Positions 2,181 to 58,979 of a stretch of 64,000 bases of DNA are shown here, piece after piece. The position numbers and the translations under genes are program-made. Each line of letters opens with the position of its first letter. Within the stretch, counting starts at the first letter, position 1. The notes under the pieces were generated by a model that saw nothing but the letters and a program-made list of their open reading frames with translations, ran no database searches and was not told the origin of the DNA. The stretch comes from Crambe crambe. Taxonomy: Eukaryota; Porifera; Demospongiae; Poecilosclerida; Crambeidae. The stretch is taken from positions 5,365,501-5,429,500 of the forward strand of contig OZ004583.1 of the NCBI GenBank assembly GCA_963924555.1, written 5' to 3'.

Positions 2181-3566
2181 ATGTCTTGCATTGATGCCAC
2201 TCTCACTGACAAAAGTGCCAATGAAAGCATCACTAAAATGCCTGAATATCCTCGTATCTTGCCAGTTGGTACCCATGGTGATGATCCTACTGTACGAGCT
2301 AACAAAGATAGCATTCTCGAGCAGCTGTACACTGAGTACAAGGATAAAGAATATGCTCACCTGGTCTGTGATAAAGGAGTGATCATCGACAACACAACAG
2401 CTGGGCGGAAGAATGCAGATCCTGGGTACAGAAGAGTTCTCCAAATTGTCAATGATTTTGCCTGCAACAATGAAATGAAGGTCGATACACCTCTTACATG
2501 GGTTCTCTTCAGGAAGGTGTTGCGTAGAATGGCTAAAAACAAGCCTTATTTCACGTTGAAAGAAGTGGTAGCTGTTGCAGAAGCCTGCACCATCCCAAAA
2601 GATTCAGTTTCCAGTGTCTTGAAGTTTTACCACGACCTTGCTGTGTTTCTTCACTATGACAAGATCCCCAGCTTAAGCTCTATAGTCATATCTGACCCTC
2701 AGTGGCTCATAAAGCAGATAGCCAAGCTTCTAGCTCTTGAAGGCTTTGAAAAAGTGAGAGCACCAAGATTGTGGGACATTCTCCGAAATTGTCATCGTAC
2801 GAGAACCTCAAGTGCTTTTCAATAAAGTTATGGACCTCATCGTTGAGACATTTTCTTCAAATCAGCTTAATCCACAAGAGCTCTCAGATTTTAAGCATAG
2901 GGGCATCATTTCTGCAGAAGATGGCATCGATCCAAATTCATTCTTGCAATTACTGGTACATCTCCACATCATAACCCAAATCACAACAGCAAGAGATAAA
3001 GAAGACCGGTATTTCATCCCATGTGTCCTTAACCATGTCCAGGCGTCACAAACTCCTGACAAAGTATCCAGTATCCCTACACTCTACATTGAGTTTGAAT
3101 GCAATCATTGCCCTAAGGGGATATTCGGTGTTTTAATCAACACCTTGCTCACTACTTCTCTCAAAAGCTGGCTCAAATGGGAACTTCTTTCAAATTTCAT
3201 ATTCAGGGAACAAGTATCATTCCGTGTCGGTTGCTATGAAGATCAAGTTACTCTTAAATTCTTTGCATCCCATTTACAAGTAATTCTACATCCATCTGGA
3301 CACAAATCAAAACACACTCACATCAGTTATCTATGTAACAATATTTGTAAAGTTATCGAGAAGAGCATCAATTCTTCAGTAAAGGATCTTCACTATGACA
3401 GTACCAAGACCCAACATTACTTTTGTTGCAAGTGTGAACTGTGTTCATCGAATCATCTTGTCGAATATCAAGGCTGGGTGCAAGCAGACTACTTCATGTA
3501 CTGCAGTAAAAAGCACGAGATCTGTATTTTATCAGAAGACAACCTTGTCTGGTTCCAAATTAAAGG
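2181..3566 (+). pseudogene. Roc-COR (ROCO family) GTPase fragment, frameshifted
   Basis: ROCO proteins are large regulatory GTPases with a Ras-like Roc domain followed by a COR dimerisation domain. The first frame (2181-2825) begins near the end of Roc: PVGTHGDD carries the T-H-x-D form of the G4 guanine-specificity motif. It continues into COR (VSSVLKFYHDLAVFLHYDKI, then VISDPQWLIKQIAKLL). A second frame (from about 2773, GTG at 2812) carries IVIVREPQVLFNKVMDLIVETF-like sequence and the rest of COR plus a Cys-rich segment (CCKCELC). A clean donor AAAG/GTGAGT ends the exon at 3566. P-loop, switch and N-terminal repeats are absent; repeat R2 lies immediately upstream. The two frames overlap oddly, since both contain an I-V-I-x-x-P-Q-x-L block, which suggests a chimeric junction between paralogues. 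A one-base error or hidden intron is the alternative. Confidence 0.75.
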
Positions 3567-4264
3567 TGAGTACAAATTACTGACAGCTAGCTAGCTAGCT
3601 ATAGGAATACAAAACTGGAACCCATCATTTGTATGGAAAAAGTGATTCCTTAAAGAAGAAAAAATTTGTACTGAAGAACTGACGACTTCTCACTGACCAG
3701 CTGAAACACACTCTCCTCTTGTTCTTTCTTCAACTGGTAGTCTAGTGAAGCTGCTGCCCTAGCTACTATACATTTTACATCTGCAGATGCACTGTCTTGC
3801 AAAGAAGCCATCGCTACGTGTCTATACGGTTATCGGTGCGTGTGAATATTATTAATGTGATTAAAAAACCACAAAATAATACACACAAAGTATTGAAGTT
3901 CACATTCCTGGGGAATGCAACGAGAGCCAGTACAAGCTGACACCAGACCCTTCCTTCTGCGTGCGGATGATGTAATACATCCGTGCTGCAGTTGGTAAAG
4001 GGTCTGGCCACGCGAGACTAGCATGCAGACTGGTAATTGTATACAATCAACTACCAAACACAATGTAGATTTCCCTTTTTAGACCTCCATTAGTAGCAAC
4101 TCTGTAGGGAAAATTCGTCCTTCAGCAAACACTTATAAATTAATAGCAAAATATCAATGACAAAGTATAGCTAAGTCTTGCATTATTTGCACCTGTTAAA
4201 TATGCTCTTTGGCTTAGATATGTGCTGGGAATGCAATTCCTTATTCCATCTCTGCAGATGTACA
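3567..4264. other. No gene seen; intron-like sequence after the Roc-COR exon
   Basis: The stretch begins with the GTGAGT donor and a TAGCTAGCTAGCTA run (3587-3601). It holds only short overlapping ORFs on the minus strand at 3814-4063, which have no recognisable domain. It ends where repeat R1 copy b begins. Confidence 0.5.
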
Positions 4265-4545
4265 CAGAAACTCAAGATGCACATGCGCGATTCATTAGTG
4301 AATCCTGAGACCTGTCAGCAGACAAGTCAATTGACTTGCATATACTAGTTTTGATAAACTGTGACCTCTTTGATCATTCTGTGCAGTCCAGCCATTTCAC
4401 TTGCTTTCTTGCATTGTGAAACTATACCTTATCCAAAAATGTATTTCAGTATAATCATGCAGTCCTGGCTTCGTTGGTTTGTGAAGCTGTAGAATCATAT
4501 TGTTTCCATATTGGCTAACAAAACATGTTTCAATATAATTAGATT
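4265..4545. repeat. Dispersed repeat R1, copy b (right part)
   Basis: It matches 690-930 and 11398-11575. It contains ACAAGTCAATTGACTTGCAT and the TGATCATTCTGTGCAGTCC block. Copies b and c share CACATGCGCGATTCATTAGT, which copy a lacks, so b and c are the closer pair here. Confidence 0.75.
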
Positions 4546-4548
4546 TAT

Positions 4549-5290
4549 TACATGATTCCGAAGACTTTGTGATTGAAAGGAGTTCATGATTAGAAGAGTG
4601 ACTGGGCATCTGCTTTCATGGGGGTCTACAGCATAAACTCTGCAATCTTTTTGCACATTCTTAATCTCTTGGATGTCACATATTTGAATTGTATTGTACT
4701 TGGAGTAGAGTTTTGGTTCAGAATTGTTAGTCTGTCGGCTGTATTCAAGTCAGTTTGCTGACTGCCTGAGAATACTGCGTACTCAGAGGAGGCAGCTGTG
4801 TGTGGCTGCCCCTGCTGGCCTGGGCCACCAGGGATGTAACAGAGCCAGACAACAGGCCCCAACCAATCAACCACACCCACCACCACTGATGGCCCCACCC
4901 ATCGATCCAAATCAGATCTCGATGGGACTTGTCACCACACTGATGAATCAGGGATACCGTCCACTGACCACACCCTACCGGGCTCCGTTTCCCCTGGTTG
5001 TGTTTTTGGTGGGGGGAGGCATGTCCTTATTCTTCCTGGGTCTCGAGTGGTTGTGGGTTTTGGTCGTCCAAACGACAGCTTCCTCTTCTTTCTATCATCG
5101 AGTTTGGCCTTCTCCCTCTGGGTGTTTCGGAGGGTCTTTGGTGTGGCCTGTCGGAGTCTGGCTTCAATGGCTGATTCTTCGGTTGACAGCTTTAGGTAGG
5201 TTTGCTCATAATGGTCTATGAGAATTGTGAGTTCTTTTGGGGTCCTGTCGGTTGCCCTTTTGAACCTCTGTTCCATGTCTGAGTAGTTTG
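4549..5290. repeat. Dispersed repeat R2, copy b
   Basis: Nearly identical to 1280-2105 but without the 78-bp tandem duplication. It encodes the 114-codon minus-strand ORF at 4932-5276. A T-tract (5321-5335) follows the end. Confidence 0.8.
4932..5276 (-). CDS. R2-encoded charged coiled-coil-like ORF, copy b
   Basis: A 114-residue ORF starting MEQRFKRATD. Residues 1-50 are a charged amphipathic stretch, residues 50-75 are Lys/Arg-rich (KAKLDDRKKRKLSFGRPKP) and the remainder is Pro/Thr-rich. ORFs of similar build, a charged helix then a basic KKRK-type patch then a Pro/Ser/Thr tail, lie on the minus strand at 9544-9747, 15753-16049 and 45324-45584. They may be diverged members of one sponge-specific or transposon-borne family. 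That grouping is inference from composition, not alignment. Confidence 0.35.
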   Translation of the reverse strand: MEQRFKRATDRTPKELTILIDHYEQTYLKLSTEESAIEARLRQATPKTLRNTQREKAKLDDRKKRKLSFGRPKPTTTRDPGRIRTCLPPPKTQPGETEPGRVWSVDGIPDSSVW

Positions 5291-11194: not shown

Positions 11195-11580
11195 ACTGTT
11201 ATGAAACATTTTTTTTCTTCTGTAGTCCTAATTTGTAAGTAATGCCATGAACATATTTGTGTTGATGTGATCATACTTGCTTGTGGTGGAAGCTAGGAGA
11301 GACTTGATTCGAGCTTCTGTATGTAGGCTTAAGCTTACCCCAAGACATTGCCTGGCTTTTTTGATAAATACCAAAAATCTGGGTGTGGTTGGATAAACAA
11401 ACTCGAGATGCACATGCGCGATTCATTAGTGAATCCTGAGACCTGTCAGCAGACAAGTCAACTGACTTGCATATACTAGTTTAGATAAACTGTGACCTCT
11501 TTGATCATTCTGTGCAGTCCAGCCATTTCACTTGCTTTCTTGCATTGTGAAACTATACCTTATCTATTCAGTCTTCAGTA
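11195..11580. repeat. Dispersed repeat R1, copy c
   Basis: It matches 505-930, including CTTGTGGTGGAAGCTAGGAG, and shares CACATGCGCGATTCATTAGT with 4265-4545. It ends a little before the 3' end of micro-exon array 1. Confidence 0.75.
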
Positions 11581-11705
11581 TAATTATATAGGTAGACACA
11601 GCACAAAGAAATCAGTGAAAATCAAAATAATAATAATCAAGTCTACTACATGCCGAGGCATCAAGTCTTTTTAAAGATAAACTTGTAAACATTTTTAAAA
11701 ATAAT

Positions 11706-11764
11706 TCATTTCTTAAAATATATAGACAAACTTAAAAAAGTCATTCCGATTGTTAATCCCAATC
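11706..11764 (-). CDS. Array 1 hydrophobic last exon (predicted transmembrane tail)
   Basis: After a TATGTAG acceptor in phase 1, this exon reads GLGLTIGMTFLSLSIYFKK and stops (TGA at 11706-11708). Fifteen or more consecutive uncharged residues followed by Lys-Lys-stop look like a C-terminal membrane anchor. It is in frame with the 24-nt exon GKSVGTGI at 11845-11868. A possible alternative exon inside the intron (23 nt, VIFCYFIM) would change the phase and lead to a stop. Confidence 0.5.
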
Positions 11765-13432
11765 CTACATACCATAATGAAATAACAAAAGATAACTGCA
11801 AAATCGATTCCACAAAGTTGTTCCTCGTAAAGTCACACACTTACCAATTCCAGTCCCGACACTCTTCCCTAAAAAAAGGGTATGCAATCAGTTTCAAAAA
11901 GGCTGCCTCATCAAATCACTAGATGTATATACACTTACCTGCATCACTTATCCCATTTCCTACTTCCTTCCCTAAAAAAGGTATACAATAAGGTTGCATT
12001 ATCAAATCGCTGAATTTATACTTACCAGCCCCCACCATCCCTTTCTCCATCCGTTGGTCTATATAAAAAATTTAGAAATTTGTTAACTTGGATATGAGGC
12101 TAAAATACAACTAATCTTCTGGAATGGACACCTTGGCCAAAACTTCTTTATTTCTAGGAGCTGAAGTATATCCTGCATCACTTATCCCACTTCCCACTTC
12201 CTTCCCTAAAAAAGGTATACAATAAGGTTGCCTTATCAAATCGCTGAATTTATACTTACCAGCCCCCACCATCCCTTTCTCCATCCGTTGGTCTATATAA
12301 AAAATTTAGAAATTTGTTAACTTGGATATGAGGCTAAAATACAACTAATCTTCTGGAATGGACACCTTGGCCAAAACTTCTTTATTTCTAGGAGCTGAAG
12401 TATATCCTGCATCACTTATCCCACTTCCCACTTCCTTCCCTAAAAAAGGTATACAATAAGGTTGCCTTGTCAAATCGCTGAATTTATACTTACCAGCCCC
12501 CACCATCCCTTTCTCCATCCGTTGGTCTATATAAAAAATTTAGAAATTTGTTAACTTGGATATGAGGCTAAAATACAGCTAATCTTCTGGAATGGACACC
12601 TTGGCCAAAACTTCTTTATTTCTAGGAGCTGAAGTATATCCTGCATCACTTATCCCACTTCCCACTTCCTTCCCTAAAAAAGGTATACAATAAGGTTGCC
12701 TTGTCAAATCGCTGAATTTATACTTACCAGCCCCCACCATCCCTTTCTCCATCCGTTGGTCTATATAAAAAATTTAGAAATTTGTTAACTTGGATATGAG
12801 GCTAAAATACAGCTAATCTTCTGGAATGGACACCTTGGCCAAAACTTCTTTATTTCTAGGAGCTGAAGTATATCCTGCATCACTTATCCCACTTCCCACT
12901 TCCTTCCCTAAAAAAGGTATACAATAAGGTTGCCTTGTCAAATCGCTGAATTTATACTTACCAGCCCCCACCATCCCTTTCTCCATCCGTTGGTCTATAT
13001 AAAAAATTTAGAAATTTGTTAACTTGGATATGAGGCTAAAATACAGCTAATCTTCTGGAATGGACACCTTGGCCAAAACTTCTTTATTTCTAGGAGCTGA
13101 AGTATATCCTGCATCGCTTATACCACTTCCCACTTCCTTCCCTAAAAAAGGTATACAATAAGGTTGCCTTGTCAAATCGCTGAATTTATACTTACCAGCC
13201 CCCACCATCCCCTTCTCCATCCGTTGGTCTATATAAAAAATTTAGAAATTTGTTAACTTGGATATGAGGCTAAAATACAACTAATCTTCTGGAATGGACA
13301 CCTTGGCCAAAACTTCTTTATTTCTAGGAGCTGAAGTATATTACAGTCTGACCAAATCCTGCTTTAAATGTCTTATTTCTAGCTCTGGGCTTGAGTTTGT
13401 CTCTTGAGTTTGTCATTCTACCAGCCACCCAT
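11706..13432 (-). CDS. Micro-exon gene, array 1 (GKxVGxGI 11-mer repeat protein)
   Basis: Every exon I can place is 24-95 nt long, and the internal ones begin and end in phase 1. Reading 5' to 3' on the minus strand, there are six 33-nt exons encoding DQRMEKGMVGA (13196-13228 down to 12026-12058 at 234-bp spacing). They alternate with five potential last exons (13047-13141 down to 12111-12205). Then come GKEVGNGISDA (11939-11971), GKSVGTGI (11845-11868) and a hydrophobic last exon (11706-11764). Splice sites are GTAAGT donors and TTTTTTAG or TATATAG acceptors. The exon-sized repeat has Gly at 1, 5 and 7 and aliphatic residues at 4 and 8, which fits an amphipathic 11-residue helix or Gly-zipper repeat. 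The first exon is uncertain: ATG-GGT-GGC at 13422-13432 before a GTAGAA donor is a candidate, but its phase (2) does not fit. The function is unknown. Confidence 0.6.
11845..11868 (-). CDS. Array 1 micro-exon, 24 nt (GKSVGTGI)
   Basis: Bounded by a TTTTTTTAG acceptor and a GTAAGTGTG donor on the minus strand, phase 1 to 1. It is the short form of the 11-residue repeat, lacking the last three residues. Confidence 0.6.
11939..11971 (-). CDS. Array 1 micro-exon, 33 nt (GKEVGNGISDA)
   Basis: The TTTTTTAG acceptor and GTAAGT donor are both intact, phase 1 to 1. This is the only one of the six homologous exons in the array that keeps its donor, so it can act as an internal exon. Confidence 0.65.
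12026..13228 (-). CDS. Six copies of a 33-nt micro-exon (DQRMEKGMVGA)
   Basis: The copies lie at 12026-12058, 12260-12292, 12494-12526, 12728-12760, 12962-12994 and 13196-13228. Each has a TTTATATAG acceptor and a GTAAGTATAAA donor, phase 1 to 1, so any number could be included in frame. The peptide shares the Gly and Ala spacing of the GKxVGxGI repeat only loosely. The near-perfect conservation of both splice sites in all six copies may reflect recent duplication rather than selection. Confidence 0.6.
12111..13141 (-). CDS. Five tandem alternative last exons with a 20-residue tail
   Basis: The copies lie at 12111-12205, 12345-12439, 12579-12673, 12813-12907 and 13047-13141. Each starts after TTTTTTAG in phase 1 with GKEVGSGISDA. 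The donor found in the 11939 copy is replaced by GATATA, so the frame reads on through GYTSAPRNKEVLAKVSIPED to TAG. A sixth tail (from 13279) has lost its GKEVG part. Only about 52 bp separate each stop from the next unit's exon, and no AATAAA follows the stop; one AATAAA lies inside the coding tail. Transcripts ending here would need a polyadenylation site within that short space. Confidence 0.5.
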
Positions 13433-14239
13433 GTAGTGACCTCCCACAGAGTCTTTACGGAAGAAGACATCACGATTCTTTCCATAAAGCGTCTTTTAAG
13501 ACAGAGTTGTTATTTAATAGTCAGTAAATTTACTCATATCTTGCAGAGGTGATCAAATTTCCGTTTCAATTCTGTTTCGTCCTTGTTTGGATTTGTGCAA
13601 CCTTTGTTTACCATCAGGTCCACTAAGAAAATTTTTAGTTCCTTATCTCCAAATAATTTCTTTTTTTTATTTTTTATGTAACCTTCCTTATGAAGAATAA
13701 GATGTAGTGTCCAGTCCATTATTATAGTAAAGATAGTGATATGCCAAGATGGTATACTAACTGTGTCACTGCTAGCTGTGATATAATTACAACCCTCCAG
13801 TTAGCGAATCCACTTTAGTGGACTAATGAAAACCACCTCTATGGCACTTTACAATTCATCCTTGATTATTGTGGAATCCAGCAAGAAGCTATAATTTCCA
13901 ATCTCACATGTTGCATAAGTACCAATGTCCCACTCCCTCGCATAAAAGGTGATTTTTACTGCATGTAAACTGTTGACTCTAGGGAAGCAGTCAGATATCT
14001 TGACTTAGTTTCATAATGAAATTAACATATAATACATCTGTCTAACCTTGTCAAATCTTCCTTTTCCATGACATTATTTAGATAGGTCATGAAGTCTTAA
14101 TTTTTTCTTTCACTCTGACTTGGATCATTTCGTTAATTTTTATTTAAGTTTTATATTTATACTTTACTCTGACTTGTATAGTCTATATATTTTTAATTGC
14201 CCCGTTACATGGGGCACTAAATAACCTGTCAATGTTGGC
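13341..14239. other. Intron-like remnant of array 2 type, then small ORF
   Basis: Positions 13350-13405 match the intron words of array 2 at 41-43 kb (AAATGTCTTATTTCTAGCTC, GGGCTTGAGTTTGTCTCTT), tying the two loci together. A 61-codon lysine-rich minus-strand ORF at 13534-13719 has no recognisable domain. The rest is AT-rich without features. Confidence 0.5.
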
Positions 14240-20398: not shown

Positions 20399-20463
20399 TC
20401 AATTCAAGCATGACTGCATCAGGAAAATAAGTTTCCAATAAAGCTGGATCATATATACCTTCT

Positions 20464-21633
20464 CAAATAAGTTTAGAAATAAATTCATTACTCCTGATTT
20501 CATCACTTTGGTCGTCCCATTTCCGGTTATGCTCATCTGCTTGTCCACACACATCTCCACGACTGCAACAGAAGCAAAGTCCGTCTTTGGACAGCGGTTC
20601 CAGATGATGCTGTTGAATGATTCGTTCTGGTTCTGGGTAGCACCAAGGACGCAGCGTTCCATCAATGAGTCCTCTGAGAGGTCAAGAAAGACTCTCTTCA
20701 CATACGGGCCAATATCTGGGTGTATTGTCGGCTTCGCTGGGGGAGGAGGTTCGCCCTTCACTATTGCCCGCTGGTACTTGCACCAGGACTTGTCACCGGC
20801 AGGGCACATGAAGTGCAGAGGACGGTCGTCAGTAGAGTAGGAGTGGTAAAAAATGGCCATGACAGCTCTCTTCATGGCCTCAGCATTGTTCACATTGGAG
20901 CGGATGGCTTTCCCATAAAACCGCTGAAACTTCTTCATTAACACATCAGTGAGGCGACCTTTCCCTCCCATCCTCACTCGTTTGCCATCCACCCCAAAGT
21001 GTGGCTTTGCCTTGGCCGTCTTGAGGTGGGCATACATTCTTTTCTGAACATACCCAACACATTCATGTTTGATGATGGGGTGGCTATCTCCATATGGCTT
21101 GGCATCACAGATGTGGGATAGGTGGATGAGTCACCATCAGCGATCATTGCGGTGTACCGCAACTTGTGTTTCTCCACCGATTGCTTCCAGATATTCAACG
21201 CACCCTCGGCTTCCATGGAACCTGCCGAGCCGTAAAAGTTCTGGCCACAGAGATGCTGATGACCCTCCCACCAGTCAAGAAACTGTTCTGATGTTGGGTC
21301 CAAGTGCCTCTTCGCATTGCATTCATGGCACCACTTGCTCAACACCTCCGTGTCCAGAACCTGACTGGTATCCCATGATGCCACAACCACCACACCATAC
21401 AGAGATTGATGGCCTCGCTTCTGCCACGTTGCGTCACAGGTCACCTTCACGTCCACAATCTCGTCCTCATCAGCGTCCTTGCGGAGAAGGGCAGCAGCAG
21501 CCGACATGTTTGACTGCTTCTCCGCTTCAGTGGCCCTTTTGATATGATCATAATGATAGGAGTGGTGAGTTTGAGTGAGTGGAGGGAGCATTCCCATCAC
21601 ACCAGCAAAAGTGGCTAGGCCAGACCAACCAAG
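20464..21633 (-). pseudogene. Mutator-like (MULE-type) transposase, one frameshift
   Basis: The exon starts at 21633 after an AAATTCAG acceptor and ends at about 20464 before a GAAG/GTATAT donor. The N-terminal half reads VDVKVTCDATWQKRGHQSLY, then GSAGSMEAEGALNIW and MIADGDSSTYPT. The order D-x-T-W-x-x-R-G, GSxxxME and a later DGDSST matches the transposase core of metazoan Mutator-like proteins, with the acidic residues as candidate catalytic positions. The second half, in another frame from about 21105, reads CDAKPYGDSHPIIKHECVGY and continues to NESFNSIIWNRCPK. A one-base loss near 21105-21110 separates them. Length and order are otherwise normal, so the copy is young or the break is a sequence error. 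Confidence 0.75.
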
Positions 21634-22960
21634 CTGAATTTATTTTAGGACCCCATATAAGTAGAAATACACCAAAAAAATTCATAGGAAAAGACATTTC
21701 TAGGTTCAGAAAATTTCTACTGGACTAACATTTACAACTGTCAATAGCTAGCTGTAGGCAGTGGAGTAAATGTAGGGATTGTTTCAATACGAGGCTGTGC
21801 CATCCCTACATAACTTTTTTATTTAGAAGAAATTTTTTGTGCTTACTTGTTTCCATCCTTTTTTCTTAAATTTTTCATGGAAAATGGAAAATGGATCTCC
21901 TCTACATAGACTCACACATCCTCGTACGTACGCGCACATCACGTTCACATAGTGTAAATTTTTTGGCACATGCGCAACAGTCGGTACCTAGTACCTAGCT
22001 CTATTTACCCTCCGAACATAATTATTTTAAGTTAGGCGTGTCCGTTGTTGCTAGCTAGCTAGGTGCTACAGCATTTCGAAAGATGATGATAATAATGGAG
22101 ACATATAGCCTTAAACTTACGTTTGTAGAGGCATTCCTCCCCAAACTTACACCTTCCTCCCCAAACTTACACCTTCCTCTTAACCAATACCTGCAAACTA
22201 CTGAATTTTTTTGAAGCAGCTAGCTATTATGGAAGAAGGTGAATATCACATATCACTTACTTTTTTTTCTTTTTAGTTTGTCCTCCTTGCCAGCTGTTGT
22301 AAGAAAAATTTCAAGTATGCAATTAATGGTTTTGTTCATACTTTTTTCTTCGTCTTTTTTTTTCATCGTCTTTTCTTTCATTTTTTTTTATCCTCTTTTT
22401 TATGCTCTTCTTCTCTTTTAAATAAGTTTTGACTACCTACAACAACAAAATTGCTTACCTAAAAGGCTTTCATCCTCACTCGATGACATGTTTTCTGATA
22501 AAGAAAGCGAGAACAATTTTAAAATGTGTAATTAGATCAATACATGTGGTGCAGTTCTGGATTGTTTTCCTTGTCAGGAATGTGGCAAGTGATTCTTTCC
22601 TGAATCCAGGACAGCACCACATCTGGATCATCTTTACCTATAATTGGTGCACCCTTTATCCATAGAGTAGTGAGTTGATGCTGCTCTTAGGATTCTCAGC
22701 TTACTTTTGCAATCACTGCCAATGTGACAGATCAAACTATGTCCCTTTAATTCCACAGAGTTATAGGTACTATGTTACTATCAGGCTCATTTGCTGGGAC
22801 AATGATTACCTTAGCATACTTGCTATTTTACATATTGTCTACAGTAGATTTGAAATCAATAATGCATGATGACTGTGGAACCACATGCTCCACCGTATTT
22901 TTGTCATCATCAAGCAATCTATATTTTCCATGCTCATCAATACAAATAATGTTTGGTCTA
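21634..22960. other. No gene seen; element fragments and T-rich DNA
   Basis: Positions 21765-21860 hold a small fold-back (GTAGGGAT and ATCCCTAC about 35 bp apart) followed by ATTTAGAAGAAATTTTTTGT, a word also found at the end of the 24.1-24.5 kb fold-back. A 19-bp direct repeat (CCCCAAACTTACACCTTCCT) lies at 22139-22177. The rest is AT-rich. Confidence 0.5.
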
Positions 22961-36247: not shown

Positions 36248-36508
36248 CTTAAGAAACAAACCTGTATAGATATGAAGTAGCTTATGCCTACTCCACTATT
36301 TATGAATGATGAAATCAACTAACTATATAAGTAACAATTTTTCGGGGAAAAACTAGTTTTGAACCAATTGGTGGACAGTGACACCAATTTTTATATAGCC
36401 ACCCCCATTTCCAATTAATGGACAAATTTTCCAATAATTGTACATTAACTTTAATGGTCAAAAAAAACAAGATAATGTCACAATTGCAATAATGCCAGAA
36501 TTTCAGTC

Positions 36509-37080
36509 TCAAGACACAAGAAAAGAGTTAACCTCAAAACCACAACCCCCCCCACAAAACCACAACTGTATCTCACAGTCAGCACAAAACCAGATATCCA
36601 GATCTTTTGGAGCTGTGACAGCAACATGATACCATTTATTGCAGGAATCACATGCAATCCAGTTGCCTTCTGTTGTCGTTTCACATACTGTACACTGGTA
36701 GTCATCACTATTATTGGATATGGAAAGAGCCGCCACCATTTCTTTCCTGGCTTGTCATTAGTAAAAGGATTAGGGCGATTACCAGCCTTCATAAGCTTTT
36801 GTACCATTTCAAGCAATTGGTCTTTTGTCCGGCCATATCCTATCTCGCTCATGTGAAGGGCATAATCAAGTAGCTTTTTCTCCTCTCCTGGTGTCAAAAT
36901 TGTTGCAGGACCAGGCTTTTTACCAATAACAGATTTCCCTGTAAGATAAGTAGAGATGGTACTCTTCGGAATACCATATCTGCCGGCAGCTTCCCTCAGT
37001 GACAAATTCTCCTCATGTACTGCATTAAGAGCAGCTTCCAGGTCCTCTTGTGACCATTTATGCCTAGGCTTGGCGGCCAT
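36509..37080 (-). pseudogene. Pogo-like DNA-binding region fused to PHD-like finger, DDE core deleted
   Basis: ATG at 37078-37080. Residues 6-45 (HKWSQEDLEAALNAVHEENL...) form a psq/CENP-B-type HTH with KSTISTYLTGK as the recognition segment. Residues 55-120 (TPGEEKKLLDYALHMSEIGY... to GKKWW) match the second HTH. After WWRLF the reading frame changes near 36735, and the other frame gives YQCTVC, IACDSCNKWYHV and WFCADC, a C4HC3-type PHD finger near the C-terminus of some pogo transposases. The Cys after WYH is replaced (WYHVAV), so one zinc ligand is lost. About 250-300 residues of catalytic DDE domain are absent. This is an internal-deletion derivative. Confidence 0.8.
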
Positions 37081-37517
37081 CACAAGAAACAGCAAGTTAC
37101 CTATGTACATAACATGAAAATATTTGTCCAGTATTTGGGAACAATACTATGCCAGAAAAAGTTGCTATAACACTAATTAAAATCATAGTTACCTAGAAAT
37201 TTATGACTGCTCTGATAGAGGATAAAATTGGCTCCAAGTTGGTACTAAATATGTCCAAGTTCAACTTTGTGTTCTTCGTTTAATAGGTGGTTAAAATATA
37301 CCGAGACCCTAATCACAGGCCTAGGTACTTAAAAGTTTACCAGACCTACCTTCAAGAAAGTAGCGCTGTCCGGGCAACTAACGGGTGCTAACAGTCAACA
37401 GTACCGTGATCTTTAGAGCAGCTATACCTGGGCAAATTGGCGCGAAAATGAACAGGTGCACTGGCGCCTCAAGATTGCCACGTGATAATAAAGTGCTGAC
37501 TGGCCACTAATTAGATC

Positions 37518-40655: not shown

Positions 40656-40908
40656 TTATACAGTAAGCTCTTGAGTCCTTTCTTGTTTCCAAGGCGGATG
40701 AAAGGTGGAGGATGAAGGCTGCTGAGACAGGATTGTCGTTGAAGGTGCAGTGGTAACAGATACAGTGGTTTGAAGTGTTGCTGGTGCTCCCGACAGTGTT
40801 CTGGCAATTGCCCAACCTGCTAGGTAAACAGCCTACACACTGGTTACCGGCCTTTACGCAGGCACAGCCTCTACATCGTCCTGTTTTATTGCACTTACAA
40901 CACGCCAT
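40656..40908 (-). pseudogene. Cys-rich N-terminal domain, transposon-associated type
   Basis: ATG at 40906-40908. MACCKCNKTGRCRGCACVKA followed by CVGCLPSRLGNCQN gives nine Cys in 35 residues, a zinc-cluster pattern (K-C-x-x-x-G-x-C-x-x-C-x-C-x-K-A...C-x-x-C-x-P-x-R-x-G-x-C) found at the start of repetitive sponge and cnidarian proteins. Around 40797 a one-base shift gives a more plausible Thr/Ser/Pro-rich continuation (APATLQTTVSVTTAPSTT) to a stop at 40656. No larger domain follows, so it is truncated. Confidence 0.5.
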
Positions 40909-41115
40909 GGTTCACGTCACTCTTTTTTCTCTTTCCATTCATTTTTAATATTATAATCAGCTTCTTTGATTCTCCAATGTGTTTGCCAAAAAATGGGTAT
41001 ACAATTACAGGATACTTTGTGTCTGACAAAATCTTTATAATGACCAATCAGATTGAACGTCTTATTTTTAGCTCTGGGCTTAAGTTTGTCTCTTCACCTT
41101 GTCAAGTCACTACAT

Positions 41116-43374
41116 TTACATTTCTTTGATGCTTTCTCCGACGTGTTTGCCTAAATGGGTGTATAATCACAGGAAACTTAATGTCCGATAAAATTTTTCT
41201 AATGACCAGTCAGATTGAATGTCTTATTTCTAGCTCTGGGCTTGAGTTTGTGTCTTCACCTCGTCAAGTCACTAGATTTACACTCACCAGCTTCTTTGAT
41301 TCCGTCTCTGATGATCCTATACTCTGTCCGACAAAATCTTTATATGACCAATCAGATTTAAATGTCTTATTTCTATCTCTGGGCTTGAGTTTGTCTCTTC
41401 ACCTCGTCAAGTCACTAGATTTACACTCACCAGCTTCTTTGATTCCGTCTCCGATGCGTTTGCCGGTATACATCCTATACTCTGTCCGACAAAATCTTTT
41501 ATATGACCAATCAGACTTAAATGTCTTATTCCTAGCTCTGGGCTTGAGTTTATCTCTTCACCTCGTCAAGTCACTAGATTTACACTCACCAGCTTCTTTG
41601 ATTCCGTCTCCGATGATCCTATACTCTGTCCGACAAAATCTTTATATGACCAATCAGATTTAAATGTCTTATTTCTATCTCTGGGCTTGAGTTTGTCTCT
41701 TCACCTCGTCAAGTCACTAGATTTACACTCACCAGCTTCTTTGATTCCGTCTCTGATGCGTTTGCCGGTATACATCCTATACTCTGTCCGACAAAATCTT
41801 TTATATGACCAATCAGACTTAAATGTCTTATTCCTAGCTCTGGGCTTGAGTTTATCTCTTCACCTCGTCAAGTCACTAGATTTACACTCACCAGCTTCTT
41901 TGATTCCGTCTCCGATGATCCTATACTCTGTCCGACAAAATCTTTATATGACCAATCAGATTTAAATGTCTTATTTCTATCTCTGGGCTTGAGTTTGTCT
42001 CTTCACCTCGTCAAGTCACTAGATTTATACTCACCAGCTTCTTTGATTCCGTCTCCGATGTGTTTGCCGGTATACATCCTATACTCTGTCCGACAAAATC
42101 TTTTATATGACCAATCAGACTTAAATGTCTTATTCCTAGCTCTGGGCTTGAGTTTATCTCTTCACCTCGTCAAGTCACTAGATTTACACTCACTAGCTTC
42201 TTTGATTCCATCTCCAATGTGTTCGCCGGTATACATCCTGTACTCTGTCCGACAAAATTTTTATATGACATGGCCAATCAGATTTAAATGTCGCTCTGGG
42301 CGTGAGTTCGTCTCTTCACCTCGTCAAGTCACTAGATTTACACTCACCAGCTTCTTTTATTCCATTTCCGATGTGTTTGCCGGTATACATCCACTATACT
42401 CTGTCCGACAAAATCTTTCATATGACCAATCAGATTTAAATGTCTTATTCCTAGCTCTGGGCTTGAGTTTGTCTCTTCGCCTCATCAAGTCACTAGATTT
42501 ACACTCGCCTACACTCCTTCCTACCATATACAATCAGTTTCAAAAAGGTTGCCTCATCAAGTCACTAGATTTACACTCACCAGCTTCTTTTATTCCATTT
42601 CCGATGTGTTTGCCGGTATACATCCACTATACTCTGTCCGACAAAATCTTTCATATGACCAATCAGATTTAAATGTCTTATTCCTAGCTCTGGGCTTGAG
42701 TTTATCTCTTCGCCTATCAAGTCACTAGATTTACACTCGCCTACACTCCTTCCTAAAAAAGCATATACAATCAGTTTCAAAAAAGTTGCCTCATCAAGTT
42801 ACTAGATTTACACTTACCAGCGTCTTTAATTTCGTCGCCTACATGTTTCCCTAAAAATGGGTATACAATCACAAGATACTTTGTCTAACCAAATCTTTAT
42901 AATGACCATTCAGATTGAATGTCTTATTTCTAGCTCTCGTCAAGTCACACTTACTTGCATCATTGATACCATCGCTGACGTGTTTGCCTAAAAATGGGTA
43001 TACAATCACAAGATACTTTATGTCTGACAAAATCTTTATAATGACCAATCAGATTGAATGTCTTTCTAGTTACACTTACCTGCGTTTTCTATCCCATTCC
43101 CAATCCCATTGCCGATGTGTTTGCCTAAAAATGGGTATACAATCACAAGATACTTTATGTCTAACAAAATCTTTATAATGACCAATCAGATTGAATGTCT
43201 TTCTAGTTACACTTACCTGCGTTTTCGATCCCATTGCCGATGTGTTTGCCTAAAAATGGGTATACAATCACAAGATACTTTATGTCTGACAAAATCTTTA
43301 TAATGACCAATCAGATTGAATGTCTTTCTAGTTACACTTACCTGCGTTATCGATACCGGCACCGATATGTTTCC
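41116..43374 (-). CDS. Micro-exon gene, array 2 (GKHIGxGIxxA 11-mer repeat protein)
   Basis: The 5' group (minus strand, phase 1 to 1, TTTTTAG or TTCCCTAAA-type acceptors, GTAAGT donors) is 43342-43374 GKHIGAGIDNA, 43217-43249 GKHIGNGIENA, 43080-43124 GKHIGNGIGNGIENA, 42955-42987 GKHVSDGINDA and 42818-42850 GKHVGDEIKDA. In the 3' group the near acceptor is lost and a CGGACAG acceptor further upstream gives longer exons that still keep frame. These are 51 nt (42194-42244, 42035-42085, 41733-41783, 41431-41481; EYRMYTGKHIGDGIKEA type) or 36 nt (41892-41927, 41590-41625, 41288-41323; EYRIIGDGIKEA type), with GTGAG donors. The last exon is 41116-41150, GKHVGESIKEM and TAA. Two units (42348 and 42581) carry a 2-bp insertion that breaks the frame. 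No 5' exon was identified. The function is unknown. Confidence 0.6.
41180..42700. repeat. Higher-order tandem repeat, 302-bp (159+143)
   Basis: Exon starts at 41431, 41590, 41733, 41892, 42035 and 42194 alternate 159 and 143 bp apart, so a two-exon block of 302 bp is repeated about three times. The plus-strand ORFs through this region arise only because the unit lacks stops in those frames. The 42.8-43.4 kb part has a simpler 125-137-bp unit. Confidence 0.9.
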
Positions 43375-43576
43375 CTAAAAATGGGTATACAATCACAAGA
43401 TACTTTATGTCCAACCAAATCTTCATAATGACCAATCAGATTGAATGTCTTATTTCTAGCTCTGGGAAAGGGAGAGATAGAGTGGGGGTTGGGAGCACCA
43501 CTCTTTCACTCCTTAGGTAGAACACTGTATTTGTGCAAAACCCTCTCATTCATTAAAATCTATTATACTGTATATG

Positions 43577-49779: not shown

Positions 49780-50532
49780 CTCAACCCCGCCATATTTTCT
49801 CCAATCATTTCAACAGGTTTATCCATTAATTTTTTAGATCTCTAAAATAGTTGTTTTAATAAAACTAAAACTGAGTGTGCCACTGCAGCTCTGGCCATTT
49901 CAAAATCTAAGTCTGCCCTTCCCAATGATTTCTTGATATAAATCTTCCTGTTCATCCCTCAAATAGCTCCTTTTGGCCTTTTCCAGTTGGGATCAAAGGT
50001 TTCTGTGGAAATGAATTTTGAGAACAATACGTGTTTACCCTCATTTTCTGTCCCATTAAATCAGAAGCATCCCATAATTAGTTATAAATTGGAATTAAAA
50101 AGGACAATAACACAAAAATGCATAAGTGAGTCTCAATCTGTTCATCTGACATCTTAGACTGCAAAAAAAAAAAAAAAAAAAAAAATGAAACAGAATGAAA
50201 GTCAGTGGAGATTGAGTGTGAGGTTTGCAGTATCTATTATAATTCCCTATCCTTCATGCTTTCACTTACCAGCTCTTTCCCCCACCCATGATCCGAATCC
50301 TGAGGGTAGGGGTTGGTGTATTGGTGGTGTAATTGGTGGCTTTGGCTTTTCTTGTAAATATTGTTTTAGAAACCTATACGAAAAGAATAAGATAGGGTTA
50401 GTTTGGGCTTTCCTCACTGTGTGGGAGGTGGAGGAGGGAAGTCTAGGATCACTCTATTATTGAGGCGAGCCAGTCACACACTAGCATGTTGGCTACTGGA
50501 GTTTGGCCATCCTCAAGTAGCTCTAATTTTGA

Positions 50533-50983: not shown

Positions 50984-52066
50984 TTATAGAATCTCGATTA
51001 ATTCTTCCCCTGTAGTGTAAAAAATGTATGTCACCATCACTACACATTTCACATTTGTAAAACTCACCAGCCATTTTTTTGTGGAATTTCAATATGTGTG
51101 AAAGTTTCCTTTCCTGGCACCAAGTATAGCTAATAACTTACTGTTTTCATTTTTAAATTTTCAATTTCTTTGTCTATATGAATAGAATTAAAAGGTATAG
51201 CTACCATTAACATAAGAACTTACCTTTGACATTTCTTTCCTTCTCAATGACTTCTACAATAACAATGGAAATACTAGGCTATCATTATCAGAAAATGGTA
51301 CACTTACTGATTTCTTTTTTGAGCTTGTTAATCACTGTGATATATAAGTCGGTAAGAATTAGCTATACATATTTTTAATACGCTTATTGCTTACTTTTAT
51401 CTTCCATATCTTCTATGTCTATAATGATTTACATTAATTTTGTTATTACCACCGTGGCACGCTACAATTTTATCTAGCTGTAATAGCTATCGCTATTTTG
51501 GATATTAGCTCACCTATCCTGTTACTGTCAACACTGTCAAGAGTTGTCTTGATCATTGTCCTCCTCATGAACTTCCTGACCGTGGTGAAGTAGACCCTTC
51601 CATCTCTCCTGGTTGTGGCCACGGTCTCCATCCCCTCCCCCTCGCAGTAGTCCCCCTGCTTGATCTGCTCGGTCCTCTTGCTGAGCTCGTTCCACACCTG
51701 GATGGCAGGGTTGTACTTCAGGGGCTGCCTGACCCCCTTGAGAGCCATCTTGAACTTGAACTTCTCTCCGTCGAAGATGATCAGCATGTAGGTCTTCCTG
51801 ACTGCAAAGGTCCCGCACACCACAAAGGCGTGCTCTCCGCCAGTGTCGTTCCTGAACTGACCCAGCTTGTTTCCTATCAGGTCCAGTTCCTTCATCCTCT
51901 CCAGGGTGGCCACGGTGGTGAAGTTAGAGTCCGTGTCCTGGTAGTACACTTGGTACAGACAGTCCCTGGCGCTGACGTCGAAACAGCCCACCGCGTGGTT
52001 GACAAAGTGCATGTAGTACCTGCCGAGGGAGAGGGTCTCAGAGCTAGGGCTAAGTAAAGAAAGCAT
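50984..52066 (-). CDS. Chimeric gene: family-B DNA polymerase fragment spliced to coiled-coil micro-exons
   Basis: Exon 1 (51512-52066, ATG at 52064) has YYQDTDS, the metal-binding motif C of family-B polymerases. It continues IGNKLGQFRNDTGG, KTYMLIIFDGEKFKFKMAL and KGVRQ, as in the protein-primed polymerases of Polinton/adintovirus-type elements. Exonuclease and fingers regions are missing. The exon is GC-rich in AT-rich surroundings. It ends AGGATAG/GTGAGC in phase 1. Micro-exons follow in matching phase: 51395-51418 DIEDMEDK, 51308-51334 MINKLKKEI, 51224-51253 KVIEKERNVK, 51142-51173 DKEIENLKMKT (32 nt, ends in phase 0), 51068-51113 ERKLSHILKFHKKMAG and 50984-51009 EELIEIL stop. The lost catalytic parts mean no polymerase activity. 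Expression is unproven. Confidence 0.6.
51123..51520. repeat. Micro-exon module M, copy 1
   Basis: Shared at high identity with 54437-54840 and 58546-58945. Copy 1 differs by a one-base loss in the 51142 exon. Confidence 0.95.
51512..52066 (-). CDS. Family-B DNA polymerase C-terminal palm fragment
   Basis: 185 codons, intact, GC-rich. Motif C YYQDTDS lies about 40 residues from the start. Motifs A and B and the exonuclease should precede it and are absent. The downstream part is Lys-rich (ELSKRTEQIKQGDY; VYFTTVRKFMRRTM), as in palm/thumb regions. The most likely source is a Polinton-like virus or transposon. Adjacent Polinton genes (integrase, ATPase, capsid) were not seen. Confidence 0.65.
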
Positions 52067-54327: not shown

Positions 54328-54840
54328 TTAATTAAATTTAAATCTTTTGAAATTTTTTTCTTTTTTCTTTTTTAAATTTTTAATTTCCTTCCTTAATTCA
54401 GCTATCAATAAACAATAAAGACATAACACATTTAAAAAGTATAGCTAATAACTTACTGTTTTCATTTATTAAATTTTCAATTTCTTTGTCTATATGAATA
54501 GAAGTTAAAAAGTATAGCTACCATTAACATAAGAACTTACCTTTGACATTTCTTTCCTTCTCAATGACTTCTACAATAACAATGAAAATACTAGGCTATC
54601 ATTATCAGAAAATGGTACACTTACTGATTTCTTTTTTGAGCTTGTTAATCACTGTGATATATAAGTCGGTAAGAATTAGCTATACATATTTTTAATACGC
54701 TTATTGCTTACTTTTATCTTCTTCCATATCTTCTATGTCTATGATTTACATTAATTTTGTTATTACCACCGTGGCACGCTACAATTTTATCCAGCTGTAA
54801 TAGCTATCGCTATTTTGGATATTAGCTCACCTATCCATTC
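54328..54840 (-). pseudogene. Coiled-coil micro-exon gene, copy 2
   Basis: Exons with intact splice sites are 54712-54738 DIEDMEEDK, 54625-54651 MINKLKKEI, 54541-54570 KVIEKERNVK, 54457-54489 DKEIENLINEN and last exon 54328-54401, TELRKEIKNLKKKK and on to a stop. The first exon is damaged: a deletion joins ATGGA directly to TAG/GTGAGC (about 54835-54845), putting the start in phase 2. The terminal exon here is the longest of the copies (24 residues). Confidence 0.5.
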
Positions 54841-55691: not shown

Positions 55692-56016
55692 AAACAGAAT
55701 GAAAGTCAGTGGAGATTGAGTGTGAGGTTTGCAGTATCTATTATAATTCCCTATCCTTCATGCTTTCACTTACCAGCTCTTTCCCCCACCCATGATTCGA
55801 ATCCTGAGGGTAGGGGTTGGTGTATTGGTGGTGTAATAGGTGGCTTTTTTTAGAAACCTATATGAAAAGAATAAGATAGGGTTAGTTTGGGCTTTCCTCA
55901 CTGTGTGGGAGGTGGAGGAGGGAAGTCTAGGATCACTCTATTATTGAGGCGAGCCAGCCACACACTAGCATGTTGGCTACTGGAGTTTGGCCATCCTCAA
56001 GTAGCTCTAATTTTGA

Positions 56017-58475: not shown

Positions 58476-58979
58476 TTAATTTTTAATTTTCTTCCTTAAT
58501 TCAGCTATCAATAAACAATAAAGACATAACACATTTAAAAAGTATAGCTAATAACTTACTGTTTTCATTTTTTAAATTTTCAATTTCTTTGTCTATATGA
58601 ATAGAAGTTAAAAGGTATAGCTACCATTAACATAAGAACTTGCCTTTGACATTTCTTTCCTTCTCAATGACTTCTACAATAACAATGGAAATACTAGGCT
58701 ATCATTATCAGAAAATGGTACACTTACTGATTTCTTTTTTGAGCTTGTTAATCACTGTGATATATAAGTCGGTAAGAATTAGCTATACATATTTTTAATA
58801 CGCTTATTGCTTACTTTTATCTTCTTCCATATCTTCTATGTCTATAAAGATTTACATTAATTTTGTTATTACCACCGTGGCACACTACAATTTTATCTAG
58901 CTGTAATAGCTATCGCTATTCTGGATATTAGCTCACCTATCCTATGAGCTGGCCACTTACCAGAATAGGAGGCTCCCAT
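58476..58979 (-). CDS. Coiled-coil micro-exon gene, copy 3 (complete, 54 residues)
   Basis: Exons (minus strand) are 58961-58979 MGASYS, 58815-58841 DIEDMEEDK, 58728-58754 MINKLKKEI, 58644-58673 KVIEKERNVK, 58560-58592 DKEIENLKNEN and 58476-58504 TELRKKIKN then TAA. All junctions are phase 1. Donors are GTAAGT except a GC donor after 58644. Acceptors are TATAG, CACAG, TGTAG, TATAG and GATAG. Gly2 followed by Ala-Ser-Tyr-Ser satisfies the N-myristoylation pattern. From residue 8 on, the chain is charged with Ile/Leu/Val at heptad-like spacing, so a short coiled coil tethered to a membrane is a reasonable model. Purifying selection or expression has not been shown. Copies 1 and 2 share the middle exons. 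Confidence 0.6.

Follow-up and report, generated by a model that had tools for sequence, protein, structure and literature searches.

The minus-strand locus at 11706-13405 of the window, the 64,000-nucleotide stretch of DNA analysed here, is probably a member, possibly 5'-truncated, of a multi-locus gene family, with a tandem array that has been broken and a so-called soluble tail that is former intron. The family would encode tail-anchored proteins in which one 33-nt phase-1 micro-exon corresponds to one added 11-residue amphipathic helical repeat, and the last exon to one membrane-spanning helix with a KK or RK end. From this architecture we infer splicing of the micro-exons, membrane insertion of the last helix and surface binding by the repeats.

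The array extends over 11938-13341 on the minus strand and comprises six 234-bp tandem units with 99% matches, the pairwise differences among them ranging from 0 to 7 and the variable columns totalling eight (Table 1). Each unit contains two 33-nt phase-1 micro-exons, A and B, separated by 54 nt. Exon A is preceded by AG and followed by GTAAGT in every copy, whereas the B donor is intact in one unit of six, reading GCAG/GTAAGT after B6 and GCAG/GATATA after B1-B5. The remaining splice-site contexts, namely (i) the A acceptor (20 bases), (ii) the A donor (13 bases), and (iii) the B acceptor (22 bases), are letter-identical across all six units. All named internal exons of the locus are phase 1-1 with lengths in multiples of 3, and the A-B, B-C and C-anchor introns measure 54, 70 and 80 nt by their coordinates; joining A to A would need longer introns, of about 200 nt. 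The descriptive part of the earlier note is thus borne out, comprising the micro-exons, the phase 1 to 1 internal exons, the donor kept at the 11939 copy only, and the hydrophobic last exon, GLGLTIGMTFLSLSIYFKK followed by a stop, whose length and type are conserved in relatives and whose codons look constrained.

Table 1. Predicted features of the locus and of the second array; copies of A and B lie at 12026-12058 + 234k and 11939-11971 + 234k, respectively, with k = 0-5.
Feature	Positions	Strand	Remarks
Intron block	13229..13405	-	family's intron sequence; first tail-DNA copy, no exon B ahead
Exon A1	13196..13228	-	DQRMEKGMVGA, 33 nt, phase 1-1
B1	13109..13141	-	GKEVGSGISDA; has acceptor, donor lost (GATATA)
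Read-through after B1 to TAG ('soluble tail')	13047..13108	-	
Exon A2	12962..12994	-	
B2	12875..12907	-	donor lost
Read-through after B2	12813-12874	-	identical copy
Exon A3	12728..12760	-	
B3	12641..12673	-	donor lost
Read-through after B3	12579-12640	-	identical copy
Exon A4	12494..12526	-	
B4	12407..12439	-	donor lost
Read-through after B4	12345-12406	-	identical copy
Exon A5	12260..12292	-	
B5	12173..12205	-	donor lost
Read-through after B5	12111-12172	-	identical copy
Exon A6	12026..12058	-	
Exon B6	11939..11971	-	GKEVGNGISDA; sole B copy with GTAAGT donor
Exon C	11845..11868	-	24 nt, GKSVGTGI, GTAAGT donor
Last exon	11706..11764	-	hydrophobic tail GLGLTIGMTFLSLSIYFKK, then stop
Second array	40900..43500	-	same exon family; 33-, 45-, 51- and 36-nt exons

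The source genome is eukaryotic and comprises 143 Mb in 119 contigs (C-numbers denote its contigs, and L-numbers the loci fetched from it). A DNA search of this genome returned at least 54 matches, the window itself included, with relatives on C5, C6, C10, C11, C13 and C16, and a search with one anchor sequence, which gave eight places at E≤10 (E 2.5e-5 to 0.14), added C20 as well as more places on C13 and C16. The exons of the relatives are in phase 1, often of 33 nt, and read GKxIGxGIxxA or similar, with length variants of 24, 45, 57 and 78 nt and a 12-nt micro-exon, GTGATGGGATTG, coding for DGI between an acceptor and GTAAGT at 2097-2108 of L009, with equivalents in L011, L012 and L014. Their last exons are hydrophobic, such as GLGITVGLTLLSLSYYFKK or GLGVAIGLIAIAAAIIIRK. 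A more 5' exon type, Pro-rich, enters in phase 2 and leaves in phase 1, as in AQLTFKPVQLSTIPYTVPKAVEPLWFGARLGENA, and is present at L011, L012, L013 and L019 and, in diverged form, at 50.3 kb of the window. The N-terminal exon type was found at four places on C10 by protein, and the DNA count is eight, with the query itself among them; on the minus strand of the window, one such exon occupies 50270-50373, ending SGFGSWVGERA, and a similar one of 84 nt, with a broken frame, occupies 55774-55857, ending SGFESWVGERA, both with a GTAAGT donor. Several relatives bear lesions: L028 and L029 look decayed by eye, with frame breaks in the repeat part, one exon of L014 carries a 2-base insertion, and in L010 a donor is lost along with all that preceded it. 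At L019, an element of ~440 bp (~4176-4612, minus strand), with inverted ends and apparently TA-flanked as judged by eye, lies at the acceptor of the N-terminal exon.

The coding nature of the family is supported by several lines of measurement. Candidate exons, defined by a pyrimidine-rich acceptor and GTAAGT, were counted over 15 fetched loci of the family, 107.5 kb in all, the window being left out; those of exactly 33 nt number 20, compared with 0-2 per shuffle over 20 mononucleotide shuffles, the 20 candidates not being independent since some of the loci are near-duplicates, and those of 10-99 nt number 107, against 26-63 per shuffle. The abundance of 33-nt exons in the family exceeds chance. 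Within the array, four of the five variable exon columns fall at third codon positions, and the helical hydrophobic moment of the repeats is greater than that of all 2000 residue shuffles in each of three repeat strings.

The last exon follows a tight format. Tails of exactly 19 residues with a KK or RK end account for 13 of the 16 read (the window, L011 twice, L012, L013, L014, L016, L017, L019, L020, L027, L028 and L029, the last two translated by eye), the departures being L009 and L010, four residues longer, and L018, which stops at 16; a shortened second tail-like piece at ~5370 of L009, its L010 match and a match at C13:3018187 stand outside this count. Between the window copy and its close relatives, the last-exon dN/dS is ~0.15-0.18 (0.18/1.10, 0.16/0.94 and 0.18/1.26 against L009, L011 and L012, respectively, the L014 exon being equal to that of L012), a comparison over 19 codons in which dS is near saturation and, for most distant pairs, undefined. 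On the window's own branch, obtained by subtraction from the same pairwise table, the ratio is ~0.17, and the codons of the last exon look to be under constraint. The first 17 residues of the anchor have a mean hydropathy of 1.54, and by sequence the 16 tails read, with Kyte-Doolittle means for nine of them, have the form of the putative single hydrophobic C-terminal helix of a tail-anchored protein. A short C-terminal helix with a basic end is typical of tail-anchored proteins of organelle membranes. Taken together, the excess of 33-nt exons, the last-exon constraint, the third-position changes and the hydrophobic moment argue for a genuine repeat-helix protein anchored by its C-terminus.

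Searches outside the genome returned little. An alignment of five assembled proteins gave DUF5665 as the best Pfam match (E 1.2, in one of the five members) and four weak PDB matches (E 0.18-1.9), a profile of the same five against 5.8 billion proteins yielded 2823 candidates and none at E≤1, and Rfam returned nothing at E≤1 for 11400-13700 of the window. Given the Pfam and profile results, the family is probably overlooked by gene finders. Literature queries joining (i) microexon, tandem duplication, 11-mer repeat and amphipathic helix or (ii) exon duplication, splice donor, tandem, intronic polyadenylation and alternative last exon found no match. Among the matches listed for sponge multigene families, short exons or phase 1 introns, and for microexons in sponges or Amphimedon, the family does not appear in the titles, and literature on micro-exon genes with tandem 33 bp exons is mostly flatworm work.

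The sequence beyond the donorless B copies had been read in the earlier note as five copies of a soluble tail interchangeable with the anchor, so that alternative terminal exons would yield anchored and free forms of one protein. The observation itself stands: every donorless B has a good acceptor and is followed by a 20-codon frame and a stop, the 62 nt of read-through, up to and including TAG, do not differ by a letter among the five copies, and phase-1 internal exons allow any of them to be skipped with the frame kept. The role of last exon does not follow. Tail-related DNA is present at eight other places in the genome (seven aligned, plus a partial match in L015), and at five of them (L009, L011 twice, L012, L014) it is intronic, with a micro-exon donor upstream and a micro-exon acceptor downstream; among the other three, L010 has the acceptor only, L013, on the plus strand, has decayed flanks, and L015 has no recognised flanks. 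At the level of sequence, the soluble tail is of intronic origin.

The window's tail frame, ending AKVSIPED, is kept at none of the eight places, owing to one extra base in L009, L010, both L011 copies and L013, two deletions in L012 and L014, and, in L015, the absence of the start of the tail together with sequence divergence. These places represent about five sequence types, so the independent frame changes are few, and alternatively the frame could have changed in the window rather than in the relatives. Conservation at both ends, as expected of a pair of alternative terminal exons, is thus confined here to the constrained anchor. The open frame is not beyond chance, because 20 stop-free codons have a probability of ~0.4 with random codons and the five copies count as one event. 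Their identity would be explained by youth, although this falls short of proof; the variable column of the array nearest the tail is the first base past its stop. In addition, the tail is neither hydrophobic (mean hydropathy -0.66) nor endowed with a helical moment, 67% of shuffles reaching its value.

The signals for 3'-end formation were surveyed on the minus strand of 11300-13420 with four poly(A) hexamers, AATAAA, ATTAAA, AGTAAA and TATAAA. AATAAA occurs once per unit, within the tail, at 13083-13088 and at the corresponding places of the other copies, its last base lying 36 nt ahead of the last base of the stop codon; the weaker TATAAA occurs once per unit, in the A-B intron; and ATTAAA and AGTAAA are absent from this interval. 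Cleavage usually takes place 10-30 nt past AATAAA, and at that distance the stop of the tail would be removed. This position weighs only modestly against the tail, because none of the four hexamers follows the stop of the anchor either, down to 11300. With both A splice sites and the B acceptor in identical contexts in the six units, no local feature is apparent for choosing the sixth B over the first, and the simple anchored/free switch is not supported; we regard regulated alternative use of the two ends as very unlikely. Membrane and secreted 3' ends of immunoglobulins depend on one exon with both choices and their own poly(A) signals. The window locus resembles them in that reading past the donor gives a soluble tail and splicing on gives an anchor, but each B copy has one choice only.

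The letters at the unit junction suggest how the array may have arisen. The junction reads GCAGG/ATATAC, its counterparts being GCAGGTAAGTGTATATAC after B6 and, in the first intronic copy, TGTAATATAC; the left side of the junction is B6 sequence through GCAGG, and the right side is the intron ATATACTTC, preceded by TGTA at the first copy. A tandem duplication whose breakpoint lies just past the first base of the intron that follows exon B would remove the T of the donor GT; by an alternative route, duplication at the shared ATATAC and a subsequent 7-base deletion would produce the same letters. The donorless unit would then have been amplified to six, leaving one intact donor at the 3' end, and the five B copies deprived of their donor would read into the former intron until a chance stop. 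Given equivalent A and B splice sites in every unit, any transcript that contains A1 would be expected to join it to B1 and to reach its stop within the tail, giving a short unanchored protein or nothing, and the anchored form would require the skipping of all five donorless B copies.

Ordinary short-intron splicing from A1 to B1 (54 nt) would make the tail the default end, and the duplication might on that account have given birth, by exonisation, to a soluble paralogue, which would now be what the gene mainly produces. This outcome is improbable, since the tail is without conservation, no AATAAA or ATTAAA lies between its stop and the tail of the next unit, and transcripts with a premature stop so far ahead of the original last exon would be prone to decay. 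Until recently the gene probably served to make the anchored product, since the anchor began to diverge from its relatives long before the array formed. Elsewhere, tandem units of the family hold a whole exon, including (i) a 108-bp unit in both gene copies of L011, (ii) a 109-bp unit in L013, where one of three donors is weaker (GTACAT), and (iii) the unit repeated in the 5' part of the second array of the window, with both splice sites. As these units keep whole exons, the window locus would represent a broken case of a recurrent process of the family.

A serious rival to the broken-array explanation, which we judge somewhat short of an even chance, is that the window copy is a dead or silent gene whose 5' part has been lost, in which case the array is irrelevant. 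Homology of the locus to its relatives ends at ~13405, the 38 nt at 13413-13450 recur without a mismatch on C1, at a place that shows no exon of the family, protein and DNA searches found no family-type N-terminal exon between 13.4 and 50 kb of the window, and the relative L010 is also cut off upstream of the same block. The copy may indeed be 5'-truncated. On the other hand, the last exon still looks constrained, and the A exons, B6 and C are still open in frame and flanked by consensus splice sites. The first exon might also be unrelated or distant, and a candidate runs from an ATG at 13470 to GTGGCTG at 13422, in phase 1, with the weak donor GTAGAA.

The second array (Table 1) was considered as a part of the same gene and rejected, as it lies 27 kb away with no anchor exon nearby in a pattern scan. 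Seven of its tandem exons (41287-42193, minus strand), with a GTGAGT donor, do not share the CATTTTTAG acceptor that their neighbours have; use of a weaker one, GTCGGACAG, would open phase-1 exons of 51 and 36 nt (EYRMYTGKHIGDGIKEA and EYRIIGDGIKEA), mostly alternating, and the donors at 42580 and 42347 have no such 51- or 36-nt exon. Its last exon-like piece, at ~41.1 kb on the minus strand, reads by eye GKHVGESIKEM followed by a stop, without an anchor, and could be either a naturally unanchored relative or a product of decay. An intron piece of this array (43392-43464) is a dispersed repeat found on many contigs. Other features of the window comprise (i) duplicated small exons of another gene on the minus strand (51224-51253, 54457-54570 and 58560-58592; DKEIENLKNEN/DKEIENLINEN, VIEKERNVK), with GTAAGT donors; (ii) a Mutator-like transposase, PF20700, in two overlapping frames (20399-21639, minus strand); (iii) an ORF with a COR-A domain of Roco type (2181-2825, plus strand); and (iv) an ORF with a Psq helix-turn-helix (36478-37146, minus strand). 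The COR-domain ORF has matches to nine proteins. Among 121 cathepsin-family matches, 12 were retrieved, and the active-site residue is cysteine in all 11 in which it could be read; none of these is therefore the sponge silicatein, an enzyme with serine at this site.

The definition of a micro-exon gene given in PMC7653826 comprises exons <70 nt and divisible by 3, at least seven exons, at least half of them micro, and a run of four; the predicted chain A1-A6, B6, C, which skips B1-B5, would count as such a gene with its eight internal exons of 24-33 nt. Flatworm micro-exon genes (MEGs) are described in PMC7653826 and PMC10526429 as series of short exons, each a multiple of three in length, so that the frame survives skipping, and the short frame-preserving exon runs of the window locus resemble them in this respect. 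According to PMC10526429, MEG proteins are secreted by way of an N-terminal signal peptide, and their genes have introns ranging from 100 bp to nearly 5000 bp and exons that mostly measure 15 bp. Compared to these accounts, the window exons are mostly of 33 nt, the three measured introns from A to the anchor (54-80 nt) fall below the schistosome-type range of 100-5000 bp, and the gene ends in a C-terminal hydrophobic helix. By eye, the most 5' exon type (L011, L012, L013, L019 and 50.3 kb of the window) shows no signal peptide; it starts in phase 2 and is therefore not a true first exon. Tandemly repeated exons with an 81-base repeat have reportedly been described in schistosomes by Davis and co-workers, and the window locus is similar in carrying tandem copies of one short exon.

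Perilipins and synucleins (PMC5889406, PMC10238389 and PMC10694602) are 11-mer amphipathic repeat proteins, and the likeness to them resides in periodicity only, that is, in 11-residue repeats with a strong helical hydrophobic moment. The family differs from both in its Gly-containing GKxIGxGIxxA repeat, with about one repeat per exon, and in the C-terminal anchor; no homology to either was detected, with nothing better than the E 1.2 in Pfam and E 0.18 in PDB given above.

A broader reading, which we offer tentatively and consider unlikely in its entirety, is that of a lineage-specific family in which interchangeable 33-nt phase-1 exons set the length of an amphipathic helix before a tail anchor, unequal crossing-over repeatedly alters the number of repeats, and, at this locus, one such event exonised an intron and made an anchored protein free. 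If the gene models are right, the number of membrane-binding repeats can evolve exon by exon, and a breakpoint beside a splice site can strip the donor from every copy but one, breaking the array.
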